From the NCBI RefSeq assembly GCF_947499265.1, contig NZ_CANMNK010000001.1, positions 519,001 through 583,000 on the forward strand: a stretch of 64,000 nucleotides of DNA, in the 5' to 3' direction. Made by a program: the position numbers and the translations under genes. Below are positions 35,488 to 52,002 of the stretch, one piece after another (the first letter of the stretch is position 1; each line of letters opens with the position of its first letter). The stretch is from an uncultured Roseobacter sp. GTDB taxonomy: Bacteria; Pseudomonadota; Alphaproteobacteria; Rhodobacterales; Rhodobacteraceae. Under the pieces are notes generated by a model. It did not search any database and was not told where the DNA came from. It saw only the letters and a list, made by a program, of their open reading frames with translations.

Positions 35488-35522
35488 GGTTTATATTGTT
35501 GTGGCGTACATCCGGGGGCGCC

Positions 35523-36140
35523 ATGACATCCACAGCCGAAATGATCCGCAAGGGGCGCAAGTTCGATCAGGTGCTCGAAGGCGCGCGGCGGGTCTTTATG
35601 GCGGATGGGTTTGAAGGCGCCAGCGTTGACGAAATCGCGCGGGTGGCCAATGTTTCCAAGGCGACGCTCTACAGCTACTTTCCCGACAAGCGGTTGTTGT
35701 TCCTTGAGGTCGCGACGACCGAATGCCAAAGACAATCCCGCGATGCGTTGGACAGCATCGATATGGAGGCAGAGCCTCGTGAGGTGCTGCAACAGACCGG
35801 GCAACATTTCCTACGCTTCATCACATCCAAGTTCGGACAGCAGATTTTCCGAATCTGCGTGGCGGAATCGGATCGGTTCCCGGAGCTGGGGCAGAAGTTC
35901 TACAATTCCGGTCCCGCGGTGTTCCGGGCCGAGATGGCGGCGTATTTCGACCGGGCCGTTGCGCGCGGGCAGTTGCGCATCGAAGATCGTATTCTGGCGG
36001 CAGATCAGTTTGGCGAACTTTGCAAGGCAGATGTCTGGCCGCGTCTGATTTTCGGCATGACCAAAGTCGTGACGCCTGCCGAGATTGATCGGGTCGTCAA
36101 TGGGGCGGTCAGAACATTCATGGCGCGTTACGGCGTCTAA
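35523..36140 (+). CDS. TetR/AcrR family transcriptional regulator
   Basis: 205 aa from the ATG at 35523 (MTSTAEM); an earlier in-frame start at 35496 is less likely because it would sit next to the putative -10 box. The N-terminal helix-turn-helix is clear: VFMADGFEGASVDEIARVANVSKATLYSYFPDK. The C-terminal ligand domain resembles the AefR-type subgroup. The neighbouring genes do not name a ligand. A palindrome at 35474-35487 suggests self-control. Confidence 0.93.
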   Translation: MTSTAEMIRKGRKFDQVLEGARRVFMADGFEGASVDEIARVANVSKATLYSYFPDKRLLFLEVATTECQRQSRDALDSIDMEAEPREVLQQTGQHFLRFITSKFGQQIFRICVAESDRFPELGQKFYNSGPAVFRAEMAAYFDRAVARGQLRIEDRILAADQFGELCKADVWPRLIFGMTKVVTPAEIDRVVNGAVRTFMARYGV

Positions 36141-36363: not shown

Positions 36364-36392
36364 TTGCCAAATTTAGAACGATCCAGTAGTTA
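36364..36392 (+). promoter_or_regulatory. Putative promoter of the catabolic island
   Basis: TTGCCA (36364-36369), a 17-bp spacer and TAGTTA (36387-36392). Operator 1 occupies the spacer and operator 2 would cover the transcription start. The -10 box is a moderate match. Confidence 0.5.
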
Positions 36393-36408
36393 TTTGGAAC
36401 GATCCAAA
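36372..36408. promoter_or_regulatory. Tandem LacI-type operators controlling the catabolic island
   Basis: Two 16-bp sites share GAACGATCCA: TTTAGAACGATCCAGT (36372-36387) and TTTGGAACGATCCAAA (36393-36408). The second is a near-perfect inverted repeat with the central CG typical of LacI-family operators. Their centres are 21 bp apart, two helical turns, and they overlap the putative promoter. The LacI gene at 51004 closes the same gene cluster and is the obvious candidate regulator. Confidence 0.65.
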
Positions 36409-36423: not shown

Positions 36424-37428
36424 GTGAACTGGATATTTGTCGGCGCCAGCACAATTGCTGCGCAATACATGATTGGCGCCGTCAGAGCGCAAGCTGGTCA
36501 GGACGTGGTCTGGGCTGTCAGCGGATCTCCGGATCGGGTGGCAGGCTGGGCGGAACGCCACGTAATCCCAAACGCGACAACAGATCTGGCGGAAGCATTG
36601 GCAGATCATGACGCTTCGGCCGTCTATATTTCCTCAACCAACGAAAAGCACTTCGCACAGGCGATGGCAGCGATCTCATCCGGTAAACATGTGCTGTGTG
36701 AAAAGCCGCTGGCTCTGAATCAGGCAGATGCGCTCGAAATGGTTGCCGCAGCGCGAGACGCCGGGGTGATCTTTGGCACCAACCACCATCTTCGGTGTTC
36801 GGGGACACATCGCGCAATACGCGACCTGATTGCCTCCGGCAGGATCGGCAAGGTTCTATCGCTGCGCGTTCATCACGCGGTGCATTTGCCGCCCAACCTG
36901 CAGGGGTGGCGGATCAATGACGCCGCCGCAGGAGGTGGTGTGATCCCGGATATCACGGTGCACAACGCCGATGTGGCGCGGTTCCTGCTGGGCGAAGACC
37001 CGAAATGCGTTGTCGCGCAGATGGCGTCTTCGGGCATGGGCGAGGGCGTCGAGGATTCCGCGATGTCTGTCTGGGCGATGCCGTCAGGCGCCATGGTGAT
37101 GTCGCATGAAAGCTTCACGCATAGATTTGCGGGCAACGGGCTGGAAGTGCATGGAGAGACCGGCTCCATCTTCGCGCAAAGCGTGATGACGCAGGAGCCG
37201 GTTGGATCGGTTGAGTTGGTCACGGAGGACGGTCGTGAAACTATCTCCTGTTCTCCGCATTCGCTCTACGCGCAGGGGGTAAGCGATTTCACCAAGGCCA
37301 CATTGGGGGAGGGCCGTCCGGCGGCGGATGGGATCGATGGAGTCAAGTCGCTCACCGTCGCGTTGGCCGTTCGCGAGGCCGCGCGCACCGGCAAACGGAT
37401 GGATGTCGACTATGAGGGCGTGTCGTGA
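36424..37428 (+). CDS. Gfo/Idh/MocA family oxidoreductase
   Basis: 334 aa from the GTG at 36424 (MNWIFVGASTIA), chosen for the AGGAA site 8 nt before it and because the Rossmann strand begins there; a frame open upstream would run through the operators. NAD(P)-binding motif FVGASTIAAQYM, the family EKP motif in LCEKPLAL, and a DITVHNADVARFLLG segment typical of the catalytic helix. Members oxidise or reduce sugar-type hydroxyls. First gene of the 36424-52002 island; it overlaps the CoA-transferase start (GTGA). Confidence 0.9.
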   Translation: MNWIFVGASTIAAQYMIGAVRAQAGQDVVWAVSGSPDRVAGWAERHVIPNATTDLAEALADHDASAVYISSTNEKHFAQAMAAISSGKHVLCEKPLALNQADALEMVAAARDAGVIFGTNHHLRCSGTHRAIRDLIASGRIGKVLSLRVHHAVHLPPNLQGWRINDAAAGGGVIPDITVHNADVARFLLGEDPKCVVAQMASSGMGEGVEDSAMSVWAMPSGAMVMSHESFTHRFAGNGLEVHGETGSIFAQSVMTQEPVGSVELVTEDGRETISCSPHSLYAQGVSDFTKATLGEGRPAADGIDGVKSLTVALAVREAARTGKRMDVDYEGVS

Positions 37429-38996
37429 GCAAACTTGTCTCCGCAGCCGAGGCCGTAGCCCGTATTCCGGACAATGCCGTTGTCACCGTCTCGTCGTCGT
37501 CATCGCTGGGCTGCCCTGATCTTGTGCTCAAAGCCATCGGCGCGCGCTTCGATGCCGAGGCGCATCCGCGCAACATCACCTCCCTGCACCCGATCGCGGC
37601 GGGTGACATGTATGGCGTCAAGGGCATGGACTATCTGGCCAAGGATGGGCTGCTGACACGGGTGCTGGCCGGGTCCTACCCCTCGGGACCCTCCAGCCTT
37701 GAGATGCCCGAGATTTGGAAAATGATCGTGGAGGACCGCGTGGCGGCATACAACGTGCCGTCGGGCATCATGTTCGACATGCACCGCGAAGCGGCCGCGC
37801 GCCGTCCCGGGGTCCTGACGCAGATCGGTCTGGAAACCTTCGTGGATCCGGTGCGGCAGGGCTGTGCGATGAACGAAAGCGGCGCGGCAGAGCCTATCGT
37901 TTCGCGGGTCGAATTCGCGGGTGACACCTGGTTGCACTTCCCGAATGTCGTGCCGAACGTCTGTATCCTGCGGGCCACGACCGCCGACGCGCGCGGAAAC
38001 CTCACCTATGAGCACGAGGGCGCTTATCTGGGCGGGCTGGAGCAGGCGATCTGTGTGCGCAATCACGGTGGTCTGGTGATCGCACAGGTCGAACGGGCGA
38101 CGGCGGTGGGCAGCCTGCGCCCACATGATGTGCGGGTGCCGGGGCATCTGGTCGATGTGGTGGTGCTTGATCCGGATCAGAAGCAAACTTGCGAAACGCC
38201 CTATGATCCTGCGATTTCGGGCCAGATCATGCGGCCCTGGGACAGCTTCGCCCATGCTGAGCATGGCGTCGAAAAGATCATTGCCCGGCGCGCCGCACAG
38301 GAGCTGCGCTCTGGCATGACGGCCAATCTCGGCTTTGGGATCAGCGCGATGGTGCCGCGTATCCTGCTGGAGGAGGGCCACCCCAACGCGGTCACCTGGG
38401 CCATCGAACAGGGGGCTGTCGGCGGCGTGCCCCTGACCGGGTTTGCCTTTGGCTGTGCCTCGAACGCGGATGCTTTTGTGCCCTCACCCCAGCAGTTCAT
38501 CTACTTTCAGGGTGGCGGATTTGACGTGTCCTTTCTATCCTTCCTTGAGGTTGATCTGCAGGGCAATGTGAACGTCTCGAAATTGGGGAAAAAGCCTTAT
38601 CTTACTGCGGGTTGCGGTGGCTTTGTGGACATCACCGCGCGGGCAAAGAAAATCGTGTTTTCGGGCTGGTTTGAGGCCGGGGCGGAGATCGATTTGAGCG
38701 AGAACGGCATCAAAGTCACCAAGCCCGGGCGGTTCACTAAAATGGTCGATGAGGTGGAGCATGTCACTTTTTCTGGCGACCGTGCGCGGGCCTTGGGGCA
38801 GGATGTACTTTACGTCACCGAGCGCTGCGTGATCAGGCTGGCGGAGGAGGGGCTCATCGCGACTGAGATCATGCCGGGCATTGATGCACAGCGGCATATC
38901 GTTGCGGCGTCCTCGGGTCGTGTGCAGGTTGCGGAGAATGCCAAAGCGATGCCCAAATCGCTGCTTGGCGCGCACCCTATGGGGATGACGCTATGA
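37425..38996 (+). CDS. Acyl-CoA:acetate/3-ketoacid CoA-transferase (class I)
   Basis: 523 aa: alpha and beta halves are fused in one chain, as in YdiF/SCOT-type enzymes. The N-terminal half starts MSKLVSAAEAVARIP with VSSSSSLGCPDLVL, and the C-terminal half has the catalytic glutamate in WAIEQGAVGGVP. It moves CoA between short acyl groups. In this cluster it most likely activates an acid made by the aldehyde dehydrogenase. It overlaps the crotonase start by ATGA. Substrate unknown. Confidence 0.9.
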   Translation: MSKLVSAAEAVARIPDNAVVTVSSSSSLGCPDLVLKAIGARFDAEAHPRNITSLHPIAAGDMYGVKGMDYLAKDGLLTRVLAGSYPSGPSSLEMPEIWKMIVEDRVAAYNVPSGIMFDMHREAAARRPGVLTQIGLETFVDPVRQGCAMNESGAAEPIVSRVEFAGDTWLHFPNVVPNVCILRATTADARGNLTYEHEGAYLGGLEQAICVRNHGGLVIAQVERATAVGSLRPHDVRVPGHLVDVVVLDPDQKQTCETPYDPAISGQIMRPWDSFAHAEHGVEKIIARRAAQELRSGMTANLGFGISAMVPRILLEEGHPNAVTWAIEQGAVGGVPLTGFAFGCASNADAFVPSPQQFIYFQGGGFDVSFLSFLEVDLQGNVNVSKLGKKPYLTAGCGGFVDITARAKKIVFSGWFEAGAEIDLSENGIKVTKPGRFTKMVDEVEHVTFSGDRARALGQDVLYVTERCVIRLAEEGLIATEIMPGIDAQRHIVAASSGRVQVAENAKAMPKSLLGAHPMGMTL

Positions 38997-39760
38997 GCGA
39001 CGTCCAGCTCCATATCGACGGTGATGTTGCCGTGCTCACCCTGCAAAACCCCGATAAGCTGAACGCGCTGACAACGCAGATGCTGGAGGCTCTGGATGCG
39101 CATCTGACACAGATTGAACGGGATACTACGCTGCGCTGTGTTATTCTGACGGGAACCGGTCGCCGCGCTTTCTGCTGTGGTGCGGATATCGCCGCTTGGG
39201 GCCATCTGAGCCCGAGCGCGTTTGCCCGTCATTGGGTCCGCGACGGGCACCGTATTTTTGATCGTTTGGCGCGCCTTTCCATGCCGACGATTGCCGCGCT
39301 GAATGGTCATGCCTTTGGCGGTGGCCTGGAACTCGCGAGCGCCTGCGATATCCGCGTGATGGTGCCAGGTGCGACGCTTGCACTACCCGAAGCGCGCGTT
39401 GGGATCGTACAAGGCTGGTCCGGCACGCAGCGTGTTTTGCGCCTCTTCCCGGAACCTGTGGTCAAGGAGATGGCGCTTTTCGGGCGGCGTATCCCGGCGG
39501 AGCGCGCGGTGGCGCTTGGGTATGTGGCCGAAATCGCCGACGATGCGCTGGCTGCTGCACAAGAGATTGCAGTCTCCCTTGGCGCGCTGTCACCCCGCGC
39601 CGTGGAGGTGTCGAAATATATGCTGCACGCCGCGACGGGCGAGGACCGCGCCGCCATGGTCGAAGCCTTGGGCAGCGCCGCCATTGCCGCCAGCGATGAT
39701 CGTGTTGAAGGCGTAACCGCCTTTCTCGACAAACGCCCCCCGAAGTTTTCAGGACAGTGA
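38993..39760 (+). CDS. Enoyl-CoA hydratase/isomerase family protein
   Basis: 255 aa, usual crotonase length. The oxyanion-hole motif CGADIAAWG and both catalytic glutamates (GGGLELA and LPEARVG) are present, so hydratase activity is plausible. It is coupled to the CoA-transferase before it, and the aldehyde dehydrogenase begins 4 bp after it. I infer hydration or dehydration of a CoA ester made by the CoA-transferase. Other crotonase activities (isomerase, hydrolase) remain possible. Confidence 0.9.
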   Translation: MSDVQLHIDGDVAVLTLQNPDKLNALTTQMLEALDAHLTQIERDTTLRCVILTGTGRRAFCCGADIAAWGHLSPSAFARHWVRDGHRIFDRLARLSMPTIAALNGHAFGGGLELASACDIRVMVPGATLALPEARVGIVQGWSGTQRVLRLFPEPVVKEMALFGRRIPAERAVALGYVAEIADDALAAAQEIAVSLGALSPRAVEVSKYMLHAATGEDRAAMVEALGSAAIAASDDRVEGVTAFLDKRPPKFSGQ

Positions 39761-39764
39761 AATC

Positions 39765-41300
39765 ATGAAAGACCTCACCATCCTTCCCGCCATCGCCGCC
39801 GAGCTGCCCAAAATATTTGAGGGCCGTCACCTGATTGATGGCGTCTGGTCTGCCAGCGCAGATGCGCAGGTGTTTGAGCGGGTGTCGCCCTCGCATGGTG
39901 TGGTGGTCAGCCGATCTGCAAAGGGTGGCGTCGCGGAATGCGAGGCGGCGATCACCGCGGCGCGCAACGCTTTCGATGCCGGGCGCTGGAGCCGCCTATC
40001 CGGCAAGGACCGCGCGACTGTGCTGCTGCGGGTTGCGGCGCTTATCGAAGCCAATGTGGACCGCATCGCGGTTCAGGAAACGCTGGAAAGCGGCAAGCCG
40101 ATCACGCAGTCGCGCGGCGAGGTGTCCGGTGCCGCAGATCTCTGGCGCTATGCCGCATCGCTTGCCCGCACGATGCATGGCGACAGCCACAACTCGTTGG
40201 GCGATGACATGCTGGGTATGGTTCTGAAGGAACCGATTGGCGTGGTGTCGATCATCACCCCTTGGAACTTCCCGTTCTGGATTCTGAGCCAGAAACTGCC
40301 CTTTGCCCTGGCTGCTGGCTGTACGGTGGTTGTGAAACCGTCCGAGGTCACGCCTTCCTCCACCGTGATGATGGGCGAGCTGTTGGTCGAGGCTGGCCTG
40401 CCAGCGGGCGTTTGTAACATCGTTCTGGGCTTCGGCGCGCCGGTCGGCAGCCTGATGTCCACCCACGAAGACGTGGATATGGTAACCTTCACCGGCTCCA
40501 CGGCTGTGGGCAAGAGGATCACGCAAGCGGCGTCCGGCACGTTGAAAAAGGTGGCACTTGAGCTGGGTGGCAAGAATGCGCAGGTGATCTTTCCCGATGC
40601 CGATCTTGAGGATGCCGCCGATGCCGTGGTTTTTGGCGCCTATTTCAACGTTGGCCAATGCTGCAACGCGTCGAGCCGGATCATCGTCCACGAAGATATC
40701 GCATCTTCATTTGTGGAATGGGTCGTTGCCCTGTCGCGCGCTGTGTCATTCGGCGATCCGCTTGATCCCGAAACACAGGTTGGCGCGATTGTAACGCCGG
40801 ACCACAACGACAAGATCGACGGGTATGTAAAAGACGCCATCGCTGCGGGCGCCAGGGTGGAGTTGGGCGGTCATACGTTCGATGTCCCCGGCTTGGGCGA
40901 TCAGTTTTACCAACCAACCATCCTCAGCAACGTCTCTCCGGATATGCCGATTGCGCGCGCCGAGGTTTTTGGCCCGGTGCTGACGGTTTTGACTTTCAGG
41001 ACGCTCGATGAGGCCATCGCTTTGACCAATGACACATCCTATGGGCTGTCTGCCGGGGTGTGGAGCGAGAACGTTCATACCTGTCTCGAGTTTGCACGGC
41101 GCGCCGAGGCGGGTACAGTTTGGACAAACACCTGGATGGACGGTTATCCGGAACTGGCCTTTGGCGGGATGAAGCAATCCGGTCAGGGTCGGGAAATCGG
41201 GCGCTACGGATTTGACGAATTCCTTGAGGTGAAATCGGTTGTGATGCGTGTGGGACGCACGCGCGCGCCTTGGGTGAAGACACGTGAAAAAAGCGTGTGA
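39765..41300 (+). CDS. Aldehyde dehydrogenase family protein
   Basis: 511 aa. It shows the NAD site [19 protein letters not shown], the general base Glu in LELGGKN and the nucleophile Cys in GQCCNASSR. The C-terminal [12 protein letters not shown] and [14 protein letters not shown] are typical of betaine-aldehyde-type ALDHs. It oxidises an aldehyde to an acid with NAD(P)+. Its partners here are two GMC oxidases that could make the aldehyde. The stop overlaps an open frame leading into the binding-protein gene. Confidence 0.93.
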
Positions 41301-41332
41301 AGACAATGTTACGCGATAAGGGAGGATACCAA

Positions 41333-42583
41333 ATGCGTGTACTATTGAAAACGAAGGCTGCTGTTGTGGCGGTGTTGATGGCATCTACCACCATGGGGGC
41401 GGCGGAGGATGTAGAAGTCCTGCACTGGTGGACATCGGGCGGTGAAGCTGCGGCCCTGAACGTGCTGAAACAGGACCTTGAAGGTCAGGGCATTGGCTGG
41501 ACCGATATGCCGGTCGCGGGGGGCGGCGGCGAGCAGGCGATGACCGTGCTGCGTGCGCGGGTGACTGCGGGCAATGCGCCGACCGCCGTGCAAGGACTGG
41601 GATTTGATATTCTGGACTGGGGCAATCAGGGATCGCTGGCAAACCTCAATGACGTCGCCGCCAAAGAAGGCTGGGACGATGTGGTGCCGGATGCGCTCAA
41701 GTCCTTTGCGAAAGTGGACGGCAAATGGGTTTCCGCGCCCGTGAACGTGCATTCGACCAACTGGGTCTGGGCCAACAAGGCGGTGCTGGATGCCAATGGC
41801 ATTGCCGTGCCGACCTCATGGGAGGAGTTCACCGCCGCGCTGGAAACGCTGAAGGCTGCGGGTGTCACACCCATTGCCCACGGTGGCCAGGCCTGGCAGG
41901 ACGCGACCGTCTTTGACGCGGTTGCCATGTCTGTGCTGGGGCCGGATGGGTACAAGGCTGCCTTCATCGACCTCGATGAAGAGACGCTTGGTTCGGACGG
42001 CATGAAAGAAGCCTTCGACCGCATGGCGGTGATCCGTGCGAATGTTGATGACAATTTCTCGGGCCGGGATTGGAACCTTGCCACGGCGATGGTGATCAAC
42101 GGCGAAGCGGGCTTCCAGATGATGGGGGACTGGGCCAAGGGGGAATTCCTGAATGCCGATAAGGTCCCGGGCGAGGATTTCCTCTGCTTCCGCTTCCCCG
42201 GCACCGCGGATCAGGTCACGTTCAACGCCGACCAGTTCATGATGTTCGACCAGGGTGGCGCGGTATCTGCGGAACAGGCCGCGCTGGCCTCCGCGATCCT
42301 GTCGCCATCCTTCCAGTCGGCATTCAATGTCGTCAAAGGGTCGGTGCCCGCGCGCACAGATGTCAGTGACGCGGATTTTGATGCCTGCGGCAAACAGGGC
42401 ATGAAGGACCTTGCCGCAGCAGCAGCCTCGGGCAACCTTTTCGGGTCGATGGCCCATGGTCATGCGGCGCCCGCCTCGGTGAAGAACGCGATCTATGACG
42501 TGGTCACAGCGCATTTCAACGGCGAATACGACAGCGAAACCGCTGTCGAAGAGCTGGTGGATGCGGTTTCGATCGCCAAGTGA
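41333..42583 (+). CDS. Carbohydrate ABC transporter substrate-binding protein (hexose type)
   Basis: 416 aa from the ATG at 41333 with a perfect GGGAGG site; an in-frame upstream start at 41297 lacks one. The signal peptide runs to about residue 23 (STTMGAAED). The mature start [12 protein letters not shown] and [17 protein letters not shown] resemble the glucose/mannose-binding GtsA/GltB-type proteins of family 1. It captures the substrate in the periplasm for the two permeases and ATPase that follow. The real ligand may be a hexose or hexose derivative. A stem-loop follows the stop. Confidence 0.93.
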
Positions 42584-42589
42584 TCCTCC

Positions 42590-42620
42590 CGGTGGGGTGG
42601 CGCAATCTGTTGCCCCACCG
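42590..42620 (+). promoter_or_regulatory. Intercistronic stem-loop between binding protein and permease
   Basis: An 8-bp perfect stem (CGGTGGGG at 42590-42597 with CCCCACCG at 42613-42620) encloses 15 nt that can extend the helix. It lies 6 nt after the binding-protein stop with no T tract, so it looks like an mRNA-stabilising or partial attenuation element rather than a full terminator. Confidence 0.6.
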
Positions 42621-42671
42621 CCTTGCGCGCCCGCCGCGTAAAACAATCCCGTCTCACAAGGAGGGCGCGTG

Positions 42672-43565
42672 ATGGCTCATACAGCCGACGCGGATTTCAA
42701 GACACGCCTGCAGAATTGGATTCCCAAGCTGGTGTTGTCGCCATCGATTGCGATGATGCTGGTCTTTGTCTACGGCTTCATCCTGTTTTCGGTCTACCTG
42801 TCCTTCACCGACAGCCGCCTGCTGCCGAGCTACGGCTGGGTGGGCCTTGAGAATTATTCCAAGCTCTGGCGTCTCAGCCATTGGGAAGTCTCGCTCAAGA
42901 ACATGGGCATTTTTGCGGGTCTCTACATCGTGATCTGCACCAGCATTGGCCTCGGTCTGGCGATCTTCCTTGATCAGAAAATCCGCGGCGAAGGCCTGCT
43001 GCGCCCCATCTATCTCTATCCCATGGCGCTCAGCTTCATCGTGACCGGAACCGCGTGGAAATGGTTTCTGGATCCGGGCATCGGCCTTGAAAACGTCATG
43101 CACACCTGGGGTTGGGAGAGCTTCGAATTCAACTGGATCAAGGACCGGAATTTCGCCATCTACACCGTGGTGTTGGCCGCCGTCTGGCAGACCAGCGGCT
43201 TCGTCATGGCGATGTTTTTGGCGGGCTTGCGCGGCATCGACAATGAAATCCTCAAAGCCGCACAGATGGACGGGGCCAGCAACTGGAACCTCTACCGGCG
43301 GATCATCATCCCGCAACTGCGCCCCGCCTTCCTGTCAGCTTTTGTGATCCTGTCGCATCTGGCAATCAAGACCTTCGATCTGGTGATCGCGCTGACGGGC
43401 GGCGGGCCGGGGCGGGCCACGGAATTGCCTGCGACCTTCATGTATTCCTATACCTTCACGCGAAACCAGATGGGGATCGGCGCGGCCTCTGCCACGATCA
43501 TGCTGATGACCATCGCCGCCATCATGATCCCCTACCTCTATTCCGAACTGCGGGAGAAGCGCTGA
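42672..43565 (+). CDS. Sugar ABC transporter permease (first subunit)
   Basis: 297 aa from the ATG at 42672, preceded by AGGAGG; a GTG one codon earlier is less likely. Six hydrophobic segments, and the EAA-type loop EILKAAQMDGASNWNLYRRIIIPQL for contact with the ATPase. The segment YLYPMALSFIVTGTAWKW is typical of GtsB-like hexose permeases. It forms the channel with the next gene, whose start overlaps its stop (TGATG). Confidence 0.94.
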   Translation: MAHTADADFKTRLQNWIPKLVLSPSIAMMLVFVYGFILFSVYLSFTDSRLLPSYGWVGLENYSKLWRLSHWEVSLKNMGIFAGLYIVICTSIGLGLAIFLDQKIRGEGLLRPIYLYPMALSFIVTGTAWKWFLDPGIGLENVMHTWGWESFEFNWIKDRNFAIYTVVLAAVWQTSGFVMAMFLAGLRGIDNEILKAAQMDGASNWNLYRRIIIPQLRPAFLSAFVILSHLAIKTFDLVIALTGGGPGRATELPATFMYSYTFTRNQMGIGAASATIMLMTIAAIMIPYLYSELREKR

Positions 43566-44446
43566 TGTCTGTCGCCTCCCAGGATACCGCCATCCGCACC
43601 GGTCGGGTCACGCGCACGCTGATCTATGTGGTACTCATTCTCTTTGCGCTCTTCTACATGCTGCCGCTCTACGTGATGGTGGTGAATTCGGTGAAACCGC
43701 TCTCCGAGATCACCGGCGGCGGCATGATGAACCTGCCGCGCGAGTTTACGCTGGAGCCCTGGTTCAAGGCCTGGTCTTCCGCTCAGATCGGGGTCGAGCC
43801 CACCGGGCTGTCGCCCTATTTCTGGAACTCTATCAAGATGGTGGTGCCAGCGGTTGCAATCTCGACCGTGCTGGGCGCGCTCAATGGCTACGTGCTGACG
43901 AAATGGCGGTTCAAATACGATACCATCATTTTCGGCCTGATGCTCTTTGCCTGCTTCATCCCCTTTCAGATCGTGCTGATCCCGATGGCGCGCATGCTGG
44001 GCCTGATGGGTCTGGCTGGAACCACCTGGGGGCTGGCGCTGGTGCATGTGGTTTACGGCATCGGCTTCACAACACTCTATTTCCGCAACTACTACGCGGT
44101 TTTCCCGACAGAACTGATCCGCGCGGCGCAGATCGACGGGGCGGGGTTCTTCCAGATCTTCTGGCGCATCCTCTTGCCGTCCTCGGGACCGATCGCGGTA
44201 GTGTCGATCATCTGGCAATTCACCAACATCTGGAATGACTTCCTTTTTGGCGCCTCCTTTGCCGGGGCCGACAGTCAACCGATGACGGTGGCGCTCAACA
44301 ATCTGGTGCAGGCCTCGCACGGCGTAAAGGAATACAACGTTCATTTCGCCGGGGCGATCCTGGCCGCCATGCCAACGCTGCTCGTCTACATCGTGGCCGG
44401 ACGGTATTTCGTCCGCGGCCTGATGGCGGGTTCTGTGAAGGGGTGA
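43565..44446 (+). CDS. Sugar ABC transporter permease (second subunit)
   Basis: 293 aa with six hydrophobic segments and the EAA loop ELIRAAQIDGAGFFQIFWRILLP. It is the MalG/GtsC-type partner of the preceding permease. The start overlaps the previous stop. A 31-codon open frame and then the ATPase follow. Confidence 0.94.
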   Translation: MSVASQDTAIRTGRVTRTLIYVVLILFALFYMLPLYVMVVNSVKPLSEITGGGMMNLPREFTLEPWFKAWSSAQIGVEPTGLSPYFWNSIKMVVPAVAISTVLGALNGYVLTKWRFKYDTIIFGLMLFACFIPFQIVLIPMARMLGLMGLAGTTWGLALVHVVYGIGFTTLYFRNYYAVFPTELIRAAQIDGAGFFQIFWRILLPSSGPIAVVSIIWQFTNIWNDFLFGASFAGADSQPMTVALNNLVQASHGVKEYNVHFAGAILAAMPTLLVYIVAGRYFVRGLMAGSVKG

Positions 44447-44449
44447 GGG

Positions 44450-44545
44450 ATGGCTTTGCATCATAAGAAGACAGGCGCCAGTGGCGCGTTACAAGAGCCG
44501 AACACACGGGGCAATCGCGCCGCGCCGGGCAATCTGAAGGATTGA
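44450..44545 (+). CDS. Possible 31-aa small protein between permease and ATPase
   Basis: ATG at 44450, stop TGA at 44543-44545, preceded by AAGGGG. The peptide (MALHHKKTGASGALQEP then NTRGNRAAPGNLKD) is basic, hydrophilic and has no helix signal. It fills almost all of the 103-bp gap and may serve only to couple translation to the ATPase. Conservation would decide. Confidence 0.3.
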   Translation: MALHHKKTGASGALQEPNTRGNRAAPGNLKD

Positions 44546-44549
44546 GACG

Positions 44550-45662
44550 ATGGGTTTTCTCGACATCGACAATACGACAAAGGCCTATGGCAGTGTCGAA
44601 GTGCTGCACAACGTCGACATTTCCGTGCAGGAGGGCGAGTTTCTGGTGCTCGTCGGCCCTTCGGGCTGCGGCAAGTCCACGCTGCTGAACATGATCGCCG
44701 GGCTGGAGGAGATCACCAGTGGCGAAATCCGCATCAAGGATCAGATCATGAACGGGGTGCACCCGTCCAAGCGGAATATCGCGATGGTGTTCCAGAGCTA
44801 TGCGCTCTACCCGAACATGACCGTGGGCCAGAACATCACCTTCGGGCTGGAGATGCATGGCACGCCCAAACCGGAACGCGAAAAGGCGATGCATGAGGTC
44901 GCCAAGCTGCTGCAGATCGAACAATTGTTGGACCGTAAACCGGGGCAATTGTCGGGCGGCCAGCGGCAGCGCGTTGCCATGGGGCGGGCGCTGGTACGCA
45001 ACCCGGATGTCTTTCTCTTCGATGAACCCCTGTCCAACCTCGACGCCAAACTGCGCGTCGACATGCGCACCGAGATCAAGAAGCTGCACCAGAATCTGGG
45101 GACCACGATTGTCTATGTCACGCATGATCAGATCGAGGCGATGACGCTATCGACACGCATCGCGGTGATGAACGGCGGCTATGTGCAACAGCTGGGCACG
45201 CCGCAGGAGATCTACGACAGCCCGGCGAATATCTTTGTGGCGACCTTCATGGGCTCACCGGCGATGAACGTCATCCCGGCGACGGTGCGCATGCAAAACG
45301 GTGTGCCGCAGGCGGAGATTTCCCTGCATGATGACAGCAAGTCGCTCCTGCCCTTCAGTCAGGCCAATCTCGCCGCATGGAAGGGTAAGGACATCCTGTT
45401 GGGCATTCGTCCGGAAACCATCACGGACATTGATGGCGCAGACCGGAAATCATCAAATATTGCCCAGATGACCAATCGGATCGTGGTCACGGAACCTGCC
45501 GGCTCCGATACGTTTGTTTCAATGCAACTGGGTGGCAAGGACGTGATCGCGCGGATGCGGTCCGATGCTGAAGTGCGCGCGGGACAGGATTTTGAATTTG
45601 CCGTTAACATGGAAAAAGCTGTGGCCTTTGACCCACAGTCCGAAGACCGCATCGCGCCCTGA
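44550..45662 (+). CDS. Sugar ABC transporter ATP-binding protein (UgpC/MsmK type)
   Basis: 370 aa. Walker A GPSGCGKST, signature LSGGQRQRVAMGRAL, Walker B VFLFDEPLSNLDAKL and the switch His in YVTHDQIEAMTL are intact. The C-terminal ~130 residues form the TOBE-type regulatory domain seen in MalK/UgpC (LGIRPETI). It powers the two permeases upstream. Its stop overlaps the start of the first GMC gene (TGATG). Confidence 0.96.
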   Translation: MGFLDIDNTTKAYGSVEVLHNVDISVQEGEFLVLVGPSGCGKSTLLNMIAGLEEITSGEIRIKDQIMNGVHPSKRNIAMVFQSYALYPNMTVGQNITFGLEMHGTPKPEREKAMHEVAKLLQIEQLLDRKPGQLSGGQRQRVAMGRALVRNPDVFLFDEPLSNLDAKLRVDMRTEIKKLHQNLGTTIVYVTHDQIEAMTLSTRIAVMNGGYVQQLGTPQEIYDSPANIFVATFMGSPAMNVIPATVRMQNGVPQAEISLHDDSKSLLPFSQANLAAWKGKDILLGIRPETITDIDGADRKSSNIAQMTNRIVVTEPAGSDTFVSMQLGGKDVIARMRSDAEVRAGQDFEFAVNMEKAVAFDPQSEDRIAP

Positions 45663-47158
45663 TGCAGCCGGATGTCATCATAATCGGATCGGGCATGGGC
45701 GGTGCCACACTGGCCGCTGCACTGGCCCCGAGCGGTCGCCGCATTCTGATCCTGGAGCGTGGCGAAACCCTGCAACCGTCGCCTGCGGATCGGGATGCGC
45801 GTGCCATCTTCGAGGCAGGTGTTTTTCGACCGGACGAGCAATGGCTGGATGGATCAGATCAACCTTTCAGCCCGGGAAATTACTATTGTGTTGGGGGCAA
45901 TTCCAAATTCTACGGCGCGGTGTTGATCCGGTATCGGGAAGCGGATTTCGCAAGTATTCAGCATCGCAGGGGCAGCACCCCGGGCTGGCCGATTTCGTAT
46001 CGCGATCTGGAACCCGATTATCTGGCGGCTGAGCATCTCTATGAAGTGCGGGGCACCACTGGCGAAGACCCAACAGAGCCACCGCGGTCGGGAAGGTATC
46101 TCCATGGGCCAGTCGCCGATGAACCAGATATTTCGAAACTGCGCCAACGGTTGAAAATCGCGGGCCTTACCCCCGCGTCCTTGCCGCTGGGCGTCGATAT
46201 CGACCGCTGGTTGGCGGCGGGGCAAGATCCCTGGGATGCTCATCCCGACACCTGCGGTGGCAAGATGGATGCGGAGACCATCGCCATCAAGCAAGCGTTG
46301 GAACACGCGAATGTGGAGTTGCGAACGGGCTGCCAGGTCTCGGGATTGTCCGTTGGCGACGATGGGCGCATCTCGGGTGTGACCTGCATGATGCAGGGGA
46401 AAGTACAGACCGTTACAGCGCCCACCGTCGTTGTTTCGGCCGGGGCGGTGCAGACGGCGGCCCTGCTGCTGGCCTCGGCGAATGACAATCACCCAACCGG
46501 TCTGGCCAATAGGTCCGGTCAGGTGGGCCGCAATTTCATGAACCACAATTGCTCAGCGCTCATGGCGCTGCACCCGCTGCAAAAGAACCGGGCGATCTAT
46601 CAGAAAACGCTGATGATCAACGACTTTTACCTCTCGGATGGGCAAGGCGGCATGCCCTTGGGGAATGTGCAATTGCTGGGCAAGATTTCCGCCCCGATCC
46701 TGACCGCGGCCTCCCCCTTGCCAACCTGGCTTGCCCGTCTGATCGCAGCGCGGTCCTTCGACTTCTATGCCATGTCCGAGGACCTACCCCATCCAGACAG
46801 CCGCGTGACGCTCAAAGACGGGCAAATCAAGCTCAACTGGCAGCGATCCAATTGGGCAGCGCATGAAGCCTTGGTTGCCACGCTCAAGACATATCTGCGC
46901 AAGGCCGGACTTCCGATTGTCCTGTCGCGCGCTTTTGATCGGCGCACGCCCTCGCATCAATGCGGCACCGCACGCATGGGGCATGACCCGGACACCAGCG
47001 TGGTCGACACCTTCTGCCGCAGTCACGATCACCCCAATCTTTTCATCGTTGACGCCTCGGTGCTGCCGACATCCGCCGCGGTGAACCCGGCGCTGACGAT
47101 TGCGGCGCTGGCGCTGCGCAGCGCCAGCCACATCACCGAAACGGAGTTCGCAGCATGA
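45662..47158 (+). CDS. GMC family FAD-dependent oxidoreductase (first)
   Basis: 498 aa. The FAD dinucleotide site is IIIGSGMGGATLAAAL with ILERGE at the end of the second strand. The GMC C-terminal His region is HQCGTARMGHDP and FIVDASVLPTSAAVNPALTI. Shorter and more diverged than choline dehydrogenase-type GMCs; it resembles sugar or polyol oxidising branches. It probably oxidises a sugar hydroxyl of the imported compound. No export signal was seen, so it should be cytosolic. It overlaps the SDR start by ATGA. Confidence 0.9.
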   Translation: MQPDVIIIGSGMGGATLAAALAPSGRRILILERGETLQPSPADRDARAIFEAGVFRPDEQWLDGSDQPFSPGNYYCVGGNSKFYGAVLIRYREADFASIQHRRGSTPGWPISYRDLEPDYLAAEHLYEVRGTTGEDPTEPPRSGRYLHGPVADEPDISKLRQRLKIAGLTPASLPLGVDIDRWLAAGQDPWDAHPDTCGGKMDAETIAIKQALEHANVELRTGCQVSGLSVGDDGRISGVTCMMQGKVQTVTAPTVVVSAGAVQTAALLLASANDNHPTGLANRSGQVGRNFMNHNCSALMALHPLQKNRAIYQKTLMINDFYLSDGQGGMPLGNVQLLGKISAPILTAASPLPTWLARLIAARSFDFYAMSEDLPHPDSRVTLKDGQIKLNWQRSNWAAHEALVATLKTYLRKAGLPIVLSRAFDRRTPSHQCGTARMGHDPDTSVVDTFCRSHDHPNLFIVDASVLPTSAAVNPALTIAALALRSASHITETEFAA

Positions 47159-47913
47159 GTAAGATTGCGCTGGTCACCGGCGGGCAACAGGGTATTGGGC
47201 TTGGCATTGTCGAACAACTTATCGCGGCCAACTACCGGGTTGCCATCGCATCGCGGTCTCCCGGCGATACGCCGATTGTGCAATCTGCCTTGGACAAATT
47301 TGGCAGTGCCGCGCGTTATTTTCAGCATGATGTTTCGGAGATCGGGCATGTTCCCGCGTTGCTCAATCGGGTGGAGGAGGCGTTTGGCCCTGTGACCACG
47401 CTGATCAGCAATGCGGGCGTCGGCGCCCCGGTGCGCGGTGATATGCTCGATCTCGCGCCGGAAAACTGGGATTTTGTTCTCGATGTCAACCTGCGCGGCG
47501 CGTTCTTTTTGGCGCAGGCCGTGGCCAAGCGCATGTTGGCAACACCTTCGGAAAGCTACCGTTCCATCAGCTTCATCACCTCGGTCAGCGCGGCCATGGT
47601 GTCGACGGAGCGCGCGGAATACTGCGTGTCCAAAGCCGGTGCCGCGATGATGTCGGAGCTTTTCGCGGTGCGTCTGGCCCCGCATGGCATCGGTGTGTTC
47701 GAGCTGCGTCCCGGCATCATCGAGAGCGAAATGACCGCCGGTGTGCGTGACAAATACACGGCGCGCATTGAAGACGGTCTGGTGCCTGCCCGGCGTTGGG
47801 GGCTGCCGCAGGATATCGGGGAAATCGTTCTGGCCGTGGCTGAGGGGCAGATGCGGTTTGCCAATGGCGCCTGCATTCCGGTGGATGGCGGTCTGTCCAT
47901 CGCGCGCCTGTAG
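47155..47913 (+). CDS. SDR oxidoreductase, 3-ketoacyl reductase-like
   Basis: 252 aa. Rossmann site VTGGQQGIGLGI (8-19), ISNAGVG (85-91), Ser143, Tyr156 and Lys160 in AEYCVSKAG form a complete catalytic set. The C-terminal GACIPVDGGLSIARL is typical of FabG-like SDRs. Placed between two GMC genes, it probably acts on a keto intermediate of the same pathway rather than on fatty acids. The substrate is not known. Confidence 0.92.
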   Translation: MSKIALVTGGQQGIGLGIVEQLIAANYRVAIASRSPGDTPIVQSALDKFGSAARYFQHDVSEIGHVPALLNRVEEAFGPVTTLISNAGVGAPVRGDMLDLAPENWDFVLDVNLRGAFFLAQAVAKRMLATPSESYRSISFITSVSAAMVSTERAEYCVSKAGAAMMSELFAVRLAPHGIGVFELRPGIIESEMTAGVRDKYTARIEDGLVPARRWGLPQDIGEIVLAVAEGQMRFANGACIPVDGGLSIARL

Positions 47914-47922
47914 AGAAATGCG

Positions 47923-49515
47923 ATGACCGAAGGATATGATTTCATCATCATCGGCGGCGGGTCTGCAGGGTCCGTGATTGCGGCCCGCCTGAGCGAAGAC
48001 GCGAATGTGCGTGTGCTGCTGCTGGAGGCGGGAGGGCGGGATCGGCATCCGTTTTACCACCTGCCTGCCGGGTTCGCCAAGATGACCAAGGGCATCGGCA
48101 GCTGGGGGTGGACCACCACTCCGCAGCGCCACATGCAGGGCAAGGTGTTCACCTACACGCAGGCAAAGGTCATCGGCGGTGGGTCGGCGATCAATGCCCA
48201 GATCTACACCCGCGGTGCTGCGCAGGATTATGATGAATGGCGTCAGCTGGGGTGCGAGGGCTGGAGCTTCGCCGATGTGCTGCCCTATTTCAAAAAATCC
48301 GAAGACAATGATGCCTTTGACAATGAATTTCATGGTCAGGGCGGTCCCCTTGGTGTGAGCAAGCCAGCGGCGCCTTTGCCGATTTGCGATGCCTATATCG
48401 CGGCGGCGGGCCAGTTGGGCATTCCGGAAAACAAGGATGTAAACGGCGCGCGTCAGGATGGTGCCGGGTACTATCAATTGACGCAACGCCATGCGCGCCG
48501 GTCCTCGGCGGCAATGGCCTTTCTGGCGCCAAACAGGGATCGTGCGAACCTGACCGTGCGCACGGGGGCTCAGGTGCGGCGCATCCTGTTCCACGCCGGG
48601 CGCGCGACCGGTGTTGAATTGGAGGACGGCAGCCGGGTTTTGGCGGATCGAGAGGTGATCCTGTCCTCGGGCGCTATCGGCTCGCCAAGACTTTTGCAGC
48701 TGTCCGGCGTCGGACCTGCGGATGAGCTGCGCGCGCTTGGCATCGAGGTTGTTCTTGACCAGCCCAATGTGGGTGCGAACCTGCAGGATCACCTCGATCT
48801 CTACGCGATTTGTGAGGTGACCGGCCCGCACACCTACGACCGCTTTGCCAAGCCGCATCTTTCTGCGCTGGCCGGGCTGCAATATTTTTTCACCCGCAGG
48901 GGGCCGGTGGCGTCTAGCCTCTTTGAAACAGGGGGTTTTTGGTATGCGGACCCCGACGCCCGCTCCCCCGATATTCAGATGCATCTTGGTCTCGGCACCG
49001 GGATCGAAGCGGGCGTGGCGGCGATGCCCAACGGTGGTGTGACGCTGAATGCGTGTTTCCTGCGCCCACGCTCGCGCGGTACCGTACGCCTGCGAACGGA
49101 TAACCCAGGCGATATGCCGTTGATCGATCCCAATTATCTGGCGGATCCCTATGATCGGGAGATGTCGATCCGCGGGCTGAAGCTGGTGCAATCGATCCTG
49201 GCACAGGACGCGCTGAGACCCTTCATCCTGGCGGAACGCCTGCCGGGACCGGACGTGCAGACAGATGAAGAATACTTCAATTTTATCTGCACACATTCCA
49301 AGACCTCGCACCACTGTGCCGGCACCTGCCGCATGGGCGTTGACGCGGGCGCGGTGCTCGACCCACGCCTGTGCTTCAATGGCATCGACGGTCTGCGCGT
49401 TGCAGATGCCTCGATCATGCCGCGCGTCAATTCGTCCAACACCAACGCCCCGTCCATCATGATCGGCGAAAAAGCGGCCGATATGATCAAATCAGACCAA
49501 GGAATTTGCCAATGA
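47923..49515 (+). CDS. GMC family oxidoreductase, choline dehydrogenase-like (second)
   Basis: 530 aa, full GMC length. FAD site FIIIGGGSAGSVIAARL, the GMC signature KVIGGGSAINAQIYTRG, and the C-terminal catalytic region HHCAGTCRMGVD, GLRVADASIMP and NSSNTNAPSIMIGEKAA. It oxidises alcohols to aldehydes, which would suit the ALDH earlier in the operon. The stop overlaps the Dabb start (ATGA). Whether it acts on a sugar derivative or another alcohol is unknown. Confidence 0.94.
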   Translation: MTEGYDFIIIGGGSAGSVIAARLSEDANVRVLLLEAGGRDRHPFYHLPAGFAKMTKGIGSWGWTTTPQRHMQGKVFTYTQAKVIGGGSAINAQIYTRGAAQDYDEWRQLGCEGWSFADVLPYFKKSEDNDAFDNEFHGQGGPLGVSKPAAPLPICDAYIAAAGQLGIPENKDVNGARQDGAGYYQLTQRHARRSSAAMAFLAPNRDRANLTVRTGAQVRRILFHAGRATGVELEDGSRVLADREVILSSGAIGSPRLLQLSGVGPADELRALGIEVVLDQPNVGANLQDHLDLYAICEVTGPHTYDRFAKPHLSALAGLQYFFTRRGPVASSLFETGGFWYADPDARSPDIQMHLGLGTGIEAGVAAMPNGGVTLNACFLRPRSRGTVRLRTDNPGDMPLIDPNYLADPYDREMSIRGLKLVQSILAQDALRPFILAERLPGPDVQTDEEYFNFICTHSKTSHHCAGTCRMGVDAGAVLDPRLCFNGIDGLRVADASIMPRVNSSNTNAPSIMIGEKAADMIKSDQGICQ

Positions 49516-49820
49516 TCCGCCATATCGTCTTGACTCGATTTGCACCTGAAACTGCCGAAGGCACGATCGCCGAGATTTATGCCGGTCTCTCTGGTTTGAC
49601 CGAAACCCTTGCAGGTGCTCATAATTTCGGCGGTGGGCGCTCGCAAAGTCCCGAACAGATCGAGCGTGGCTACATGCATGGCTTCACCATTGATTTCGAC
49701 ACTTGGGATGATCTGCAGGCCTATGCTGACAACGCCGCGCATCAAGCGCTGGGAGCCCAGATCGTTGCCAATGCGGTGGGCGGTCTCGATGGCGTGCTTG
49801 TCCTCGACATCGAAGTGTGA
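49512..49820 (+). CDS. Dabb (stress-responsive A/B barrel) family protein
   Basis: 102 aa from the ATG at 49512; the frame is open further upstream but this ATG overlaps the GMC stop. The dimeric alpha/beta-barrel pattern is IRHIVLTRFAPET at the start and FTIDFDTWDDLQAYADNAAHQAL in the second half. In catabolic clusters such proteins can be small isomerases, lyases or accessory factors. Function unknown here; the tight coupling suggests a part in the pathway. Confidence 0.9.
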   Translation: MIRHIVLTRFAPETAEGTIAEIYAGLSGLTETLAGAHNFGGGRSQSPEQIERGYMHGFTIDFDTWDDLQAYADNAAHQALGAQIVANAVGGLDGVLVLDIEV

Positions 49821-49829
49821 GGCCTGCGC

Positions 49830-50990
49830 ATGCTGCACCTGCCCACCGAAGACGGTCGTCTAGAACCCTACACGCTTTCCGGAAACCCGCTGATACCGCG
49901 GGCTCCCGATGTACCTTTGACGCGAACGGCCTTTGCGGCGGCGCATGTTGTTTCCGACCCGCTGCGGGAAAGAAACCCATGGGATACCCGACCGGCGGTG
50001 GACTGGGATGCGACGCTCGCGTTTCGGCAGGGTCTTTGGGATCAGGGGCTTGGGCTGGCCGAAGCCATGGATACCGCGCAGCGGGGCATGGGGGTGGATT
50101 GGCAAACTGCGCGCGAGCTGATCGAGCGCACGTTGGTGGCGGCCAAAACGCACCCGCTGAAACCACGCGTTGCCTGCGGCGCGGGCACCGATCACCGGCC
50201 TCTTGAGACCCTTACAACGCCGGCGCAAATTCTGACAGCCTACAGCGAACAGGCGGAGGCCATCGAGACCGCTGGCGGCCAATTGATCTTGATGGCATCC
50301 CGCGCATTTCCTGCCATGACTGCCGCGCCTGATGTCTATCACAAGGTCTACCGGTCCTTGATCGATGGCGCGGCGGAGCCGGTGATCTTGCACTGGTTGG
50401 GGAATATGTTTGACCCTGCGCTGACGGGATATTGGGGCCATGCAGATTTGGCAAAAGCCAGCGATTTTGTCCTCGACTTGATCGCGGAAAACCCGAAACA
50501 GGTGGATGGCATCAAGATCTCCTTGCTCGATCAGGCGCATGAAGAGGCGTTCCGCACCCGCCTGCCTGATGGCGTGCGTCTCTATACCGGTGACGATTTC
50601 AACTATGCGGATCTGATCGCCGGGGACGGTAAGTGCTTTTCCCATGCGCTGCTTGGCATCTTCGCGGCGATTGCGCCCGCCGCCTCACAGGCGCTGGCGG
50701 CATTAGCACAAGAGGACGTCGCGAAATTCCACAGCCTGCTTGAGCCGACCGTGCCCCTGAGCCGCGAGATTTTCAAGGAACCCACGCGATTTTACAAAGC
50801 GGGTATCGCGTTTCTGTCCTGGCTGAATGGCTATCAGAGCCATTTCATCATGCCCGCTGGGTTCCAATCCAGCCGAGACATCACTCATTACGCGCATGTT
50901 TTCCGCCTTGCCGATCAGTCGCGGGTGCTGATCCAGCCCGATCTGGCAGAGGCACGAATGAAAACGCTGCTATCTCTGCACGGCATCTGA
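49830..50990 (+). CDS. DUF993 / dihydrodipicolinate synthase-like aldolase
   Basis: 386 aa. The TIM-barrel family is recognised from VACGAGTDH, ILHWLGNMFDPALTGYWG and VDGIKISLLD, where Lys229 is the likely Schiff-base lysine of class I aldolases. The C-terminal part carries FQSSRDITHYAHVFRLAD. DUF993 proteins are related to dihydrodipicolinate synthase, and many such relatives do retro-aldol cleavage or dehydration of keto acids. As the last enzyme gene before the regulator it may cleave the oxidised sugar product. Reaction unproven. Confidence 0.88.
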   Translation: MLHLPTEDGRLEPYTLSGNPLIPRAPDVPLTRTAFAAAHVVSDPLRERNPWDTRPAVDWDATLAFRQGLWDQGLGLAEAMDTAQRGMGVDWQTARELIERTLVAAKTHPLKPRVACGAGTDHRPLETLTTPAQILTAYSEQAEAIETAGGQLILMASRAFPAMTAAPDVYHKVYRSLIDGAAEPVILHWLGNMFDPALTGYWGHADLAKASDFVLDLIAENPKQVDGIKISLLDQAHEEAFRTRLPDGVRLYTGDDFNYADLIAGDGKCFSHALLGIFAAIAPAASQALAALAQEDVAKFHSLLEPTVPLSREIFKEPTRFYKAGIAFLSWLNGYQSHFIMPAGFQSSRDITHYAHVFRLADQSRVLIQPDLAEARMKTLLSLHGI

Positions 50991-51003
50991 TACGGACACC
51001 GCC

Positions 51004-52002
51004 ATGGAGCGAAGACCAACCATCAAGGACGTGGCAAGAGAAGCGGGCGTTTCGAAATCAACCGTCAGCCTGGTCTTGCAACGCAGCCCGTTGGTCAAAG
51101 AGCGTACCCGCGTTCAGGTTCGTGAGGCGATGGCGCGGATTGGCTATGTTTACAATCGGTCCGCGGCTAACCTGCGTTCTTCCTCCACCGGCTTGATCGG
51201 GTTGATCATCAACGACCTGCGCAACCCTTTTTTCACTGAATTCGCGGCATCCTTGCAAATGGCGCTGTCGGATCAGGGCTACGCGGTTGTGCTTGCCAAT
51301 ATCAACGAAGATGCAGAGATGCAGTCAAAGATGATCGGTACCTTGATCGAGCATGGCGTGTCGGGTTTTGTCGTGTCGCCCGCCTATGGCCCGCAGGAAA
51401 GCCCGTTCGATGCAATTGCGCGCGCGGGATTGCCGGCGATCCAGGTGTTTCGGAAAGTCGATGATCGCGAGGATCAGTTCCCGTTTCTCGCCCCGGATTA
51501 TCAATCCGGCAGCCGTCTGGCCACGCAACACTTGTTGGATCGAGGGTGCCGCCGCATTGCCTTTGTCGGCGGCCTGGCCGGTCGTGCCGTGACGCAGGAA
51601 AGAATGTCTGGCTATCTTGAGCTCATGGACGCGAACGGGGTCGAACCGGTGATTTTGACCGGTGCGGCGAGCCATGAATTTGGCGTCCAGGGCGCTCATG
51701 AGCTACTGGCGCACCACCCTGATGTGGACGGCGTTTTATGTTTCAACGATCTTGTCGCGCTCGGCCTGCTTACGGCAAGCAACGCGCTTGGCCGCACCGT
51801 CGGAACGGATTTGCGGGTCGTTGGGTTCGACAACATCGAGGAGTGCGAGCAAAGCATCCCGCAACTCTCTTCCGTCAGCTGTGGAATCCCGGATTTCGCA
51901 GAAGCGATTTCGCGGCGCATGCTGACCTGGTTGATCGACGGCATGCCGCCTGAAACGGGGATCCGGACGCAGGTTGAGCTGGTGGTCAGAGCGTCCAGTT
52001 GA
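51004..52002 (+). CDS. LacI family transcriptional regulator (catabolic island)
   Basis: 332 aa. The N-terminal helix-turn-helix TIKDVAREAGVSKSTVSLVLQ and hinge (NRSAANLRSS) are followed by a periplasmic-binding-protein-like effector domain (IGLIINDLRNPFF, FVGGLAGRAVTQERMSGY, VVGFDNIEECE). It follows DUF993 after 13 bp in the same direction. It should bind the paired operators at 36372-36408 and release them upon binding the substrate or an intermediate. Local repression is inferred. Confidence 0.94.
   Translation: MERRPTIKDVAREAGVSKSTVSLVLQRSPLVKERTRVQVREAMARIGYVYNRSAANLRSSSTGLIGLIINDLRNPFFTEFAASLQMALSDQGYAVVLANINEDAEMQSKMIGTLIEHGVSGFVVSPAYGPQESPFDAIARAGLPAIQVFRKVDDREDQFPFLAPDYQSGSRLATQHLLDRGCRRIAFVGGLAGRAVTQERMSGYLELMDANGVEPVILTGAASHEFGVQGAHELLAHHPDVDGVLCFNDLVALGLLTASNALGRTVGTDLRVVGFDNIEECEQSIPQLSSVSCGIPDFAEAISRRMLTWLIDGMPPETGIRTQVELVVRASS

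Follow-up and report, generated by a model that had tools for sequence, protein, structure and literature searches.

The sugar 1,5-anhydroglucitol has no anomeric carbon, and in two human diseases neutropenia is caused by its 6-phosphate. The anaerobic breakdown of this sugar and of 1,5-anhydromannitol uses glycyl radical enzymes (YbiW and PflD), with import by a phosphotransferase system and with 1,5-anhydroglucitol-6-phosphate and 1,5-anhydromannitol-6-phosphate as the compounds concerned (PMC12441222). In section 5.1 of this review, an oxidative 1,5-anhydroglucitol pathway is given as not described as of 2025, and a probiotic is said to require an enzyme that is active under aerobic conditions. 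Rhizobiaceae are reported to reduce 1,5-anhydrofructose to 1,5-anhydromannitol, from which a P450-like enzyme not yet identified makes mannose (PMC12441222, citing Kuhn 2006). Here, a block of 14 genes is described that occupies positions 36424-52002 of a 64,000-nucleotide stretch from an uncultured Roseobacter sp. (contig NZ_CANMNK010000001.1; the whole stretch is called the window below). As an operon the block is conserved, beyond chance, in Rhodobacterales and Rhizobiales, and its probable role is the uptake and aerobic degradation of ring-locked anhydro sugars. It supplies candidate genes for an aerobic route, in a culturable symbiont (Sinorhizobium meliloti) as well as in marine roseobacters.

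The glycyl-radical pathway serves the substrate class proposed here, but neither a phosphotransferase importer nor a glycyl radical enzyme is encoded among the 14 genes, and a glycyl-radical route was rejected for this reason. The reductive branch of Rhizobiaceae is represented by a single characterised enzyme, the 1,5-anhydro-D-fructose reductase (AFR) of Sinorhizobium, whose reported onward route to mannose via an oxygenase has no counterpart in the island. No P450-like oxygenase acting at C1 was found among the 14 window genes, the rest of the genome not having been searched for one, so the island would not be the reported mannose route. The full chain set out below is a testable proposal.

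The first gene and the conservation of the operon

The first gene (36424-37428, + strand) encodes a Gfo/Idh/MocA oxidoreductase whose top solved relatives are two 1,5-anhydro-D-fructose reductases, 2glx and 4koa (E ~3e-97). The source of 2glx is S. morelense (PMC5969746). The similarity is full-length, and the GTG start at 36424 agrees with the solved relatives. The window protein is 50-51% identical to the AFR of the S. meliloti island and keeps K94, D176 and H180, which we take to be the catalytic residues of AFR. The structure 4koa presumably derives from S. meliloti; the AFR gene of strain Ak57 differs from it at one position. In Ak57 this gene heads the same operon as in the window, with the order LacI, AFR, CoA-transferase, crotonase, aldehyde dehydrogenase (ALDH), binding protein, two permeases, ATPase, GMC1, SDR, GMC2 and glycerate kinase, and a DUF993 gene (623.9 bits) lies divergently upstream. 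The gene context of the window AFR is therefore shared with a characterised AFR, and the eight proteins compared between the two islands are 47 to 71% identical. With the S. meliloti AFR as query, the island gene scored 330 bits in the window's own genome and the next paralogue 82 bits. Homology and synteny both tie the first gene to characterised AFR enzymes, and an NADPH-dependent reduction of 1,5-anhydrofructose to 1,5-anhydromannitol is predicted for its product. The initial annotation had overlooked this and, the AFR-like first gene being unseen, named no substrate. It had also held that its idea of an undescribed route would be refuted if the complete set corresponded to a pathway already characterised; such a correspondence was found for AFR only. 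In literature searches of an open-licence library, no description of the whole gene set was found, which agrees with the earlier statement that no described pathway has this exact set.

Some S. meliloti locus tags are presumably genes of the island: smc04396 the binding protein, and SMc04390, SMc04391 and SMc04392 GMC2, SDR and GMC1. The gene smc04396 is induced by dextrin (PMC4960864). SMc04390, SMc04391, SMc04392 and SMc04132 appear together in a list of proteins lowered in the phbC phaR mutant (PMC12542648). One record among the loci (L093, CP090106.1) is titled pSymB and measures 3.7 Mb, the size of a chromosome, so its label is possibly swapped.

The distribution of the operon was followed with GMC1. 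Out of at least 575 confirmed relatives, a scan kept 80 loci, to which all counts of named islands refer; they come from roseobacters and Rhizobiales, plus one contig labelled Flavobacteriales. Since the fetched flanks were only 10 kb, 25 of the 80 loci were too short for counts over the whole island, leaving 55 long islands (at least 9 kb upstream and at least 6 kb downstream). Presence was scored at identities of at least 39% for AFR, 50% for the CoA-transferase, ALDH and binding protein, 40% for the crotonase, 55% for GMC2, 44% for the SDR and glycerate kinase, 45% for DUF993, 60% for the module II enzymes and 50% for the kinase described below, always with at least 100 bits. At these thresholds, the CoA-transferase, crotonase and GMC2 were each present in 54/55 long islands, ALDH and the binding protein each in 52/55, the SDR in 37/55 and the AFR-like gene in 36/55, with the window included. 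Among family genomes, counting the window's own, GMC1 relatives (E<=1e-100) were found in 44 of 290 and DUF993 in 60 of 295; the sole other genome of the same genus in this sample had neither.

GMC1 also occurs in other company. It is paired with an AFR-like gene, without the CoA genes, on Bradyrhizobium and Arthrobacter plasmids. On one Bradyrhizobium plasmid (L094, 11822-14497), a Gfo gene (50% identical to the window's), a GMC1 (60%) and an MFS permease lie amid transposases, possibly as a mobile pair for inversion at C2. A third kind of GMC1 island (L097, 4421-13422; L098, 4454-15066) has the same importer and GMC1 and no CoA genes. It carries a histidinol-dehydrogenase-like enzyme and an acetolactate-synthase-like enzyme of the thiamine diphosphate type (IolD model 301 bits, below the cut-off), perhaps another way of opening the same ring.

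The operon genes form one regulon under a predicted LacI-type operator (36372-36408, no strand assigned). A near-perfect palindrome, TTTGGAACGATCCAAA, lies at 36393-36408 ahead of the first gene, with a weaker copy, recognised by eye, about 21 bp upstream (36372-36387). In the whole own genome, TTGGAACGWTCCAA with at most one mismatch occurs at two sites only; the second operator-like palindrome (G000:C8:66175-66188) has one mismatch. Palindromes of the TGGAACGWTCCA kind number 68 in the 80 loci and 2 in the control, a single mononucleotide shuffle. The palindrome precedes AFR in 19 of the 39 loci (among 94) in which AFR is present and the sequence upstream of it covers 150 bp. In several rhizobial islands it stands ahead of LacI, in eight islands that lack AFR ahead of the CoA-transferase, and in seven loci ahead of the module II genes, five of these loci having module II on the opposite strand. 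The block is a real, widespread and co-regulated catabolic operon, and the earlier view of one catabolic unit under a LacI regulator is borne out by the conserved gene set and the shared operator.

All 14 genes lie on the + strand. Neighbouring genes overlap at 6 of the 13 junctions; together with those spaced by no more than 20 bp, the tight junctions number 10. The remaining gaps separate ALDH from the binding protein (32 bp), the binding protein from the permease (88 bp) and the permease from the ATPase (103 bp). Behind AFR follow a fused alpha and beta CoA-transferase of family I (PF01144, YdiF/FadX type, with YdiF as its nearest solved relative; 37425-38996), a crotonase with both hydratase glutamates, E113 and E133 (38993-39760), and ALDH (39765-41300). 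The importer consists of a periplasmic sugar-binding protein related to solved glucose-binding proteins (41333-42583), two CUT1 permeases (A, 42672-43565; B, 43565-44446) and a MalK/UgpC-type ATPase (44550-45662). Next come GMC1 (45662-47158), whose closest solved relatives are the FAD glucose dehydrogenase and fructose dehydrogenase, with pyranose oxidase weaker, an SDR of the PRK12745 family (47155-47913), the choline-dehydrogenase-like GMC2 (47923-49515) and a 102-aa Dabb (dimeric alpha/beta barrel) protein (49512-49820). DUF993 (49830-50990) and the LacI-family regulator (51004-52002) close the block. When 12 to 20 island sequences were aligned for each enzyme, the catalytic motifs proved to be preserved: K94/D176/H180 of the Gfo enzyme, EQGAVGG of the CoA-transferase, E113 and E133 of the crotonase, ELGGKN and the cysteine of ALDH, the His/Asn motifs of GMC1 and GMC2, and S-Y-K of the SDR. 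The initial annotation had thus correctly seen a one-directional run of 14 genes with tight junctions and LacI at its end, and catalytic residues kept in each enzyme. The enzymes in its title are all there, with the AFR-like enzyme, SDR and Dabb protein left unnamed; of its "hexose-type importer", sugar-type import stands and the type is corrected to CUT1/MalK.

Alternating end modules and DUF993

The islands differ in how they are completed. Module I (SDR and DUF993, as in the window) was found in 41 of the 80 named islands. DUF993 lies within the fetched range in 23 loci, all of which have the SDR, and in 18 further SDR loci it lies just past the fetched edge, adjoining the LacI gene before AFR. 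Of 24 loci in whose fetched range neither module lay, 23 were searched as genomes, together with L165; the surroundings of 20 DUF993 genes were then retrieved, and 18 of them connect with the island. Module II, defined by a fumarate-reductase-type flavoprotein and/or a levoglucosan-dehydrogenase-like Gfo enzyme, was found in 33 islands, the flavoprotein in 32 and the Gfo enzyme in 25. None of the 80 loci has both modules, and none of the 33 module II islands has the SDR. Six loci fall outside both modules: two short contigs (L113, L138), one with GMC1 only (L156), two with the SDR present and DUF993 elsewhere in the genome (L125, L178), and one with the SDR and a KDG-kinase-like kinase and no DUF993 in its genome (L142). 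In the SDR-type island of L125 (11491-15186), the range examined contains neither DUF993 nor glycerate kinase, nor any gene of module II.

The kinases found also differ between the modules. Glycerate kinase accompanies 20 of the 41 module I islands and none of the 33 of module II, and a kinase resembling those of 2-keto-3-deoxygluconate (KDG) accompanies 9 of the 33 module II islands and none of the 41 of module I. The closest solved relatives of the latter are the KDG kinases 4e69 (241.9 bits) and 3lhx (196.8 bits), followed by YdjH (8iwl, 191.1 bits). A DUF993 gene is owned by 16 of the 33 module II genomes; the eight that were fetched are on contigs that differ in length from the island's, with GMC1 or GMC2 beside none, two of them (L214, L215) at contig ends. 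In a quick tree of 87 GMC1 proteins (44 of module I, 34 of module II and 9 unlabelled; SH-aLRT support only), the module changes at least 8 times, 6 of these changes being forced by well supported branches, versus 25.7 changes on average with shuffled labels. That the modules have replaced each other again and again, in operons that are otherwise alike, suggests one shared intermediate that both accept.

The predicted model of DUF993 (pLDDT 91.3) has the TIM-barrel fold of the DHDPS/NAL class I aldolase superfamily, as judged from a structure search. SMc04132 (4dnh) was matched first, with 55% identity, followed by the DHDPS/NAL family (E ~1e-9; the majority of the 50 best matches have TM 0.78-0.85, normalised by target length). 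At rank 7 stands E. coli YagE, which we take to be a KDG aldolase. K229, on the GIK strand, is invariant in 23 sequences and is probably the Schiff-base lysine. The earlier placing of DUF993 among Schiff-base aldolases is in line with these results. SMc04132 shares the fold of the window protein but is a structure without an assigned activity, and related DUF993 genes of the family sit in other clusters. In the open-licence library, DUF993 is named in no paper searched.

These other clusters were surveyed from 63 DUF993 places, of which 58 loci were fetched, leaving out the window's own and four fragments. Window-kind islands account for 20 loci (L088 in part), another CoA cluster for 20 and a Gfo-DUF993-isomerase cluster for 10; 8 are neither. 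The other CoA cluster has a CoA-transferase (at least 55%) and a crotonase or SDR, many with an acyl-CoA dehydrogenase. In L036, L047, L216 and others, DUF993 is joined by a CoA-transferase, crotonase, Dabb protein, acyl-CoA dehydrogenase, SDR and sugar isomerase, often with ALDH, GMC and a ribose-type importer, and in some with glycerate kinase. Some of the Gfo-DUF993-isomerase clusters (L032, L043, L217, L218 and others) have a TctABC-type importer. A CUT1 importer beside 5 of the 20 other-kind clusters gave no substrate clue; of the two that were followed, L232 has genes of the 5-oxoprolinase-like kind further downstream and L231 has proteins that match no NCBIfam model.

A proposed aerobic route and its rivals

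The AFR-like gene anchors the substrate class, and it is rather probable that this class is the 1,5-anhydrohexitols (1,5-anhydroglucitol, 1,5-anhydrofructose, 1,5-anhydromannitol). KDG is the best guess for the junction of the two modules, and convergence on it is an even call. The best explanation of the operon, aerobic use of 1,5-anhydrohexitols converging on KDG, comes just short of an even chance. The enzymology rests on enzyme families, and the chain as a whole is unlikely to hold in every step. An anhydrohexitol would be imported by the CUT1 system, whose family is observed, and oxidised at C2 by GMC1 to 1,5-anhydrofructose, which AFR would reduce to 1,5-anhydromannitol. GMC2 and ALDH may then oxidise C6 to the acid. 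The initial annotation had proposed oxidation at more than one position and activation by CoA, and the gene set supports both. It had also placed cleavage at the CoA ester; a transferase and a hydratase are present but no thiolase, ligase or thioesterase is found among the 14 genes, so the CoA part looks like a catalytic CoA dehydration, and cleavage is better placed after it.

The CoA-transferase and crotonase would dehydrate across C4-C5, with CoA acting catalytically as in the dehydration of carnitine by CaiB/CaiD. The likeness lies in a CoA-transferase beside a crotonase in nearly all long islands with no ligase or thioesterase, although CaiB is a family III transferase and the window enzyme belongs to family I. 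Hydration of the enol ether product, perhaps with the Dabb protein, would open the ring because C5 would now be a hemiketal carbon, and the manno epimer would yield D-KDG. In a Fischer check of C6 oxidation and C4-C5 water loss, 1,5-anhydromannitol gave D-KDG and 1,5-anhydroglucitol the L-threo isomer; AFR would be needed because, on paper, only the manno product gives D-KDG. In module I, DUF993 may cleave KDG, or KDG oxidised by the SDR, to pyruvate and glyceraldehyde or glycerate, and in module II islands the KDG-kinase-like kinase may phosphorylate KDG to 2-keto-3-deoxy-6-phosphogluconate instead. The glycerate kinase of module I and the kinase of module II both fit KDG as an intermediate. 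This resembles the non- and semi-phosphorylative Entner-Doudoroff branches, with a Schiff-base-fold enzyme and glycerate kinase in one module and a KDG-kinase-like enzyme in the other. Those branches start KDG from gluconate, whereas here it would arise from the C6 carboxylate by CoA-dependent dehydration. It is a tentative and rather doubtful idea that the operon encodes such a CoA-dependent, Entner-Doudoroff-like route, in which inversion at C2 sets the stereochemistry for exactly D-KDG and two interchangeable modules cleave or phosphorylate it. With similar reserve, DUF993 could be a new family of KDG or diketo-KDG lyases within it. If this is true, a sugar that lacks an anomeric carbon would have its ring opened with no radical enzyme involved, CoA would serve catalytically in opening a sugar ring, and DUF993 would gain its first function.

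Several points weigh against this explanation. AFR is missing from eight islands, which begin with the CoA-transferase behind the operator, and seven of these have the levoglucosan-dehydrogenase-like enzyme. The strand that bears the catalytic tyrosine (YNxP) in DHDPS has an invariant H188-W189 in DUF993 (strand 185-190, aligned by strand order only, without residue-level superposition). The best family of the module II kinase, NF052444, gives 231-258 bits, below the curated KdgK cut-off of 400, and fewer than a third of the module II islands have this kinase. Because water addition by crotonases takes place at the beta carbon, hydration of the enol ether would have to be spontaneous or be catalysed by something else. 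In the simplest version, neither the SDR of module I nor the flavoprotein of module II has a needed role. AFR also reduces osones, so glucose or glucosone remain candidate substrates. Lastly, the reported conversion of 1,5-anhydromannitol to mannose (PMC12441222) conflicts with the proposed route, unless strains differ or mannose is a side product.

The alternatives change either the substrate or the chemistry. The same chemistry could act, though improbably, on another non-reducing hexopyranose, such as levoglucosan, another anhydro sugar, or the product of a C-glycosyl or methyl glycoside. The binding protein and GMC1 are generically of the gluco type, and the enzyme that takes the place of AFR in seven module II islands is levoglucosan-dehydrogenase-like (293-306 bits, cut-off 650). 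Against this stand the AFR-like gene in about two thirds of the long islands, within the fetched range, and the structure of levoglucosan itself, whose C6 is tied in an ether that would have to be opened before GMC2 and ALDH could act on this carbon. For the window, a levoglucosan route was rejected, no levoglucosan-dehydrogenase-like gene being among its 14.

An oxidative route for sugar acids or deoxy sugar acids without ring opening, like deoxyribonate catabolism and ending in glycerate and a CoA ester, is a more distant prospect. It would account for ALDH, the CoA-transferase and the nearby glycerate kinase, and related DUF993 clusters include an acyl-CoA dehydrogenase, but it leaves AFR, the two GMC enzymes and the gluco-type importer unexplained, and neither a thiolase nor a beta-keto acid cleavage enzyme is among the 14 genes. 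The oxidative deoxyribonate pathway itself was rejected for want of a thiolase or cleavage enzyme among these genes, and a beta-oxidation reading of the CoA part was rejected as well, the island having no acyl-CoA dehydrogenase or thiolase. Least probable, by a small step, is that AFR and GMC1 have a secondary role, converting glucose or anhydroglucitol through the 2-keto sugar to mannose, while an oxygenase encoded elsewhere completes the use of 1,5-anhydromannitol and the CoA enzymes act on another compound: the reported route to mannose (PMC12441222), GMC1 with a lone Gfo gene on Bradyrhizobium plasmids and the eight islands without AFR favour it, but the CoA-transferase and crotonase are near-constant partners of GMC1 in the long islands, in one transcription unit behind one operator.

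Other genes of the window were noted in passing. Just upstream of the operon (34412-36140) lie an MbfA-type iron exporter on the - strand and an AefR-like TetR regulator on the + strand (35523-36140). Farther upstream (20187-23276), a 1029-aa ABC transporter-like protein carries a C-terminal cyclic-nucleotide-binding domain, and downstream (54843-56642, - strand), an outer-membrane transporter of the ShlB/FhaC type is encoded.

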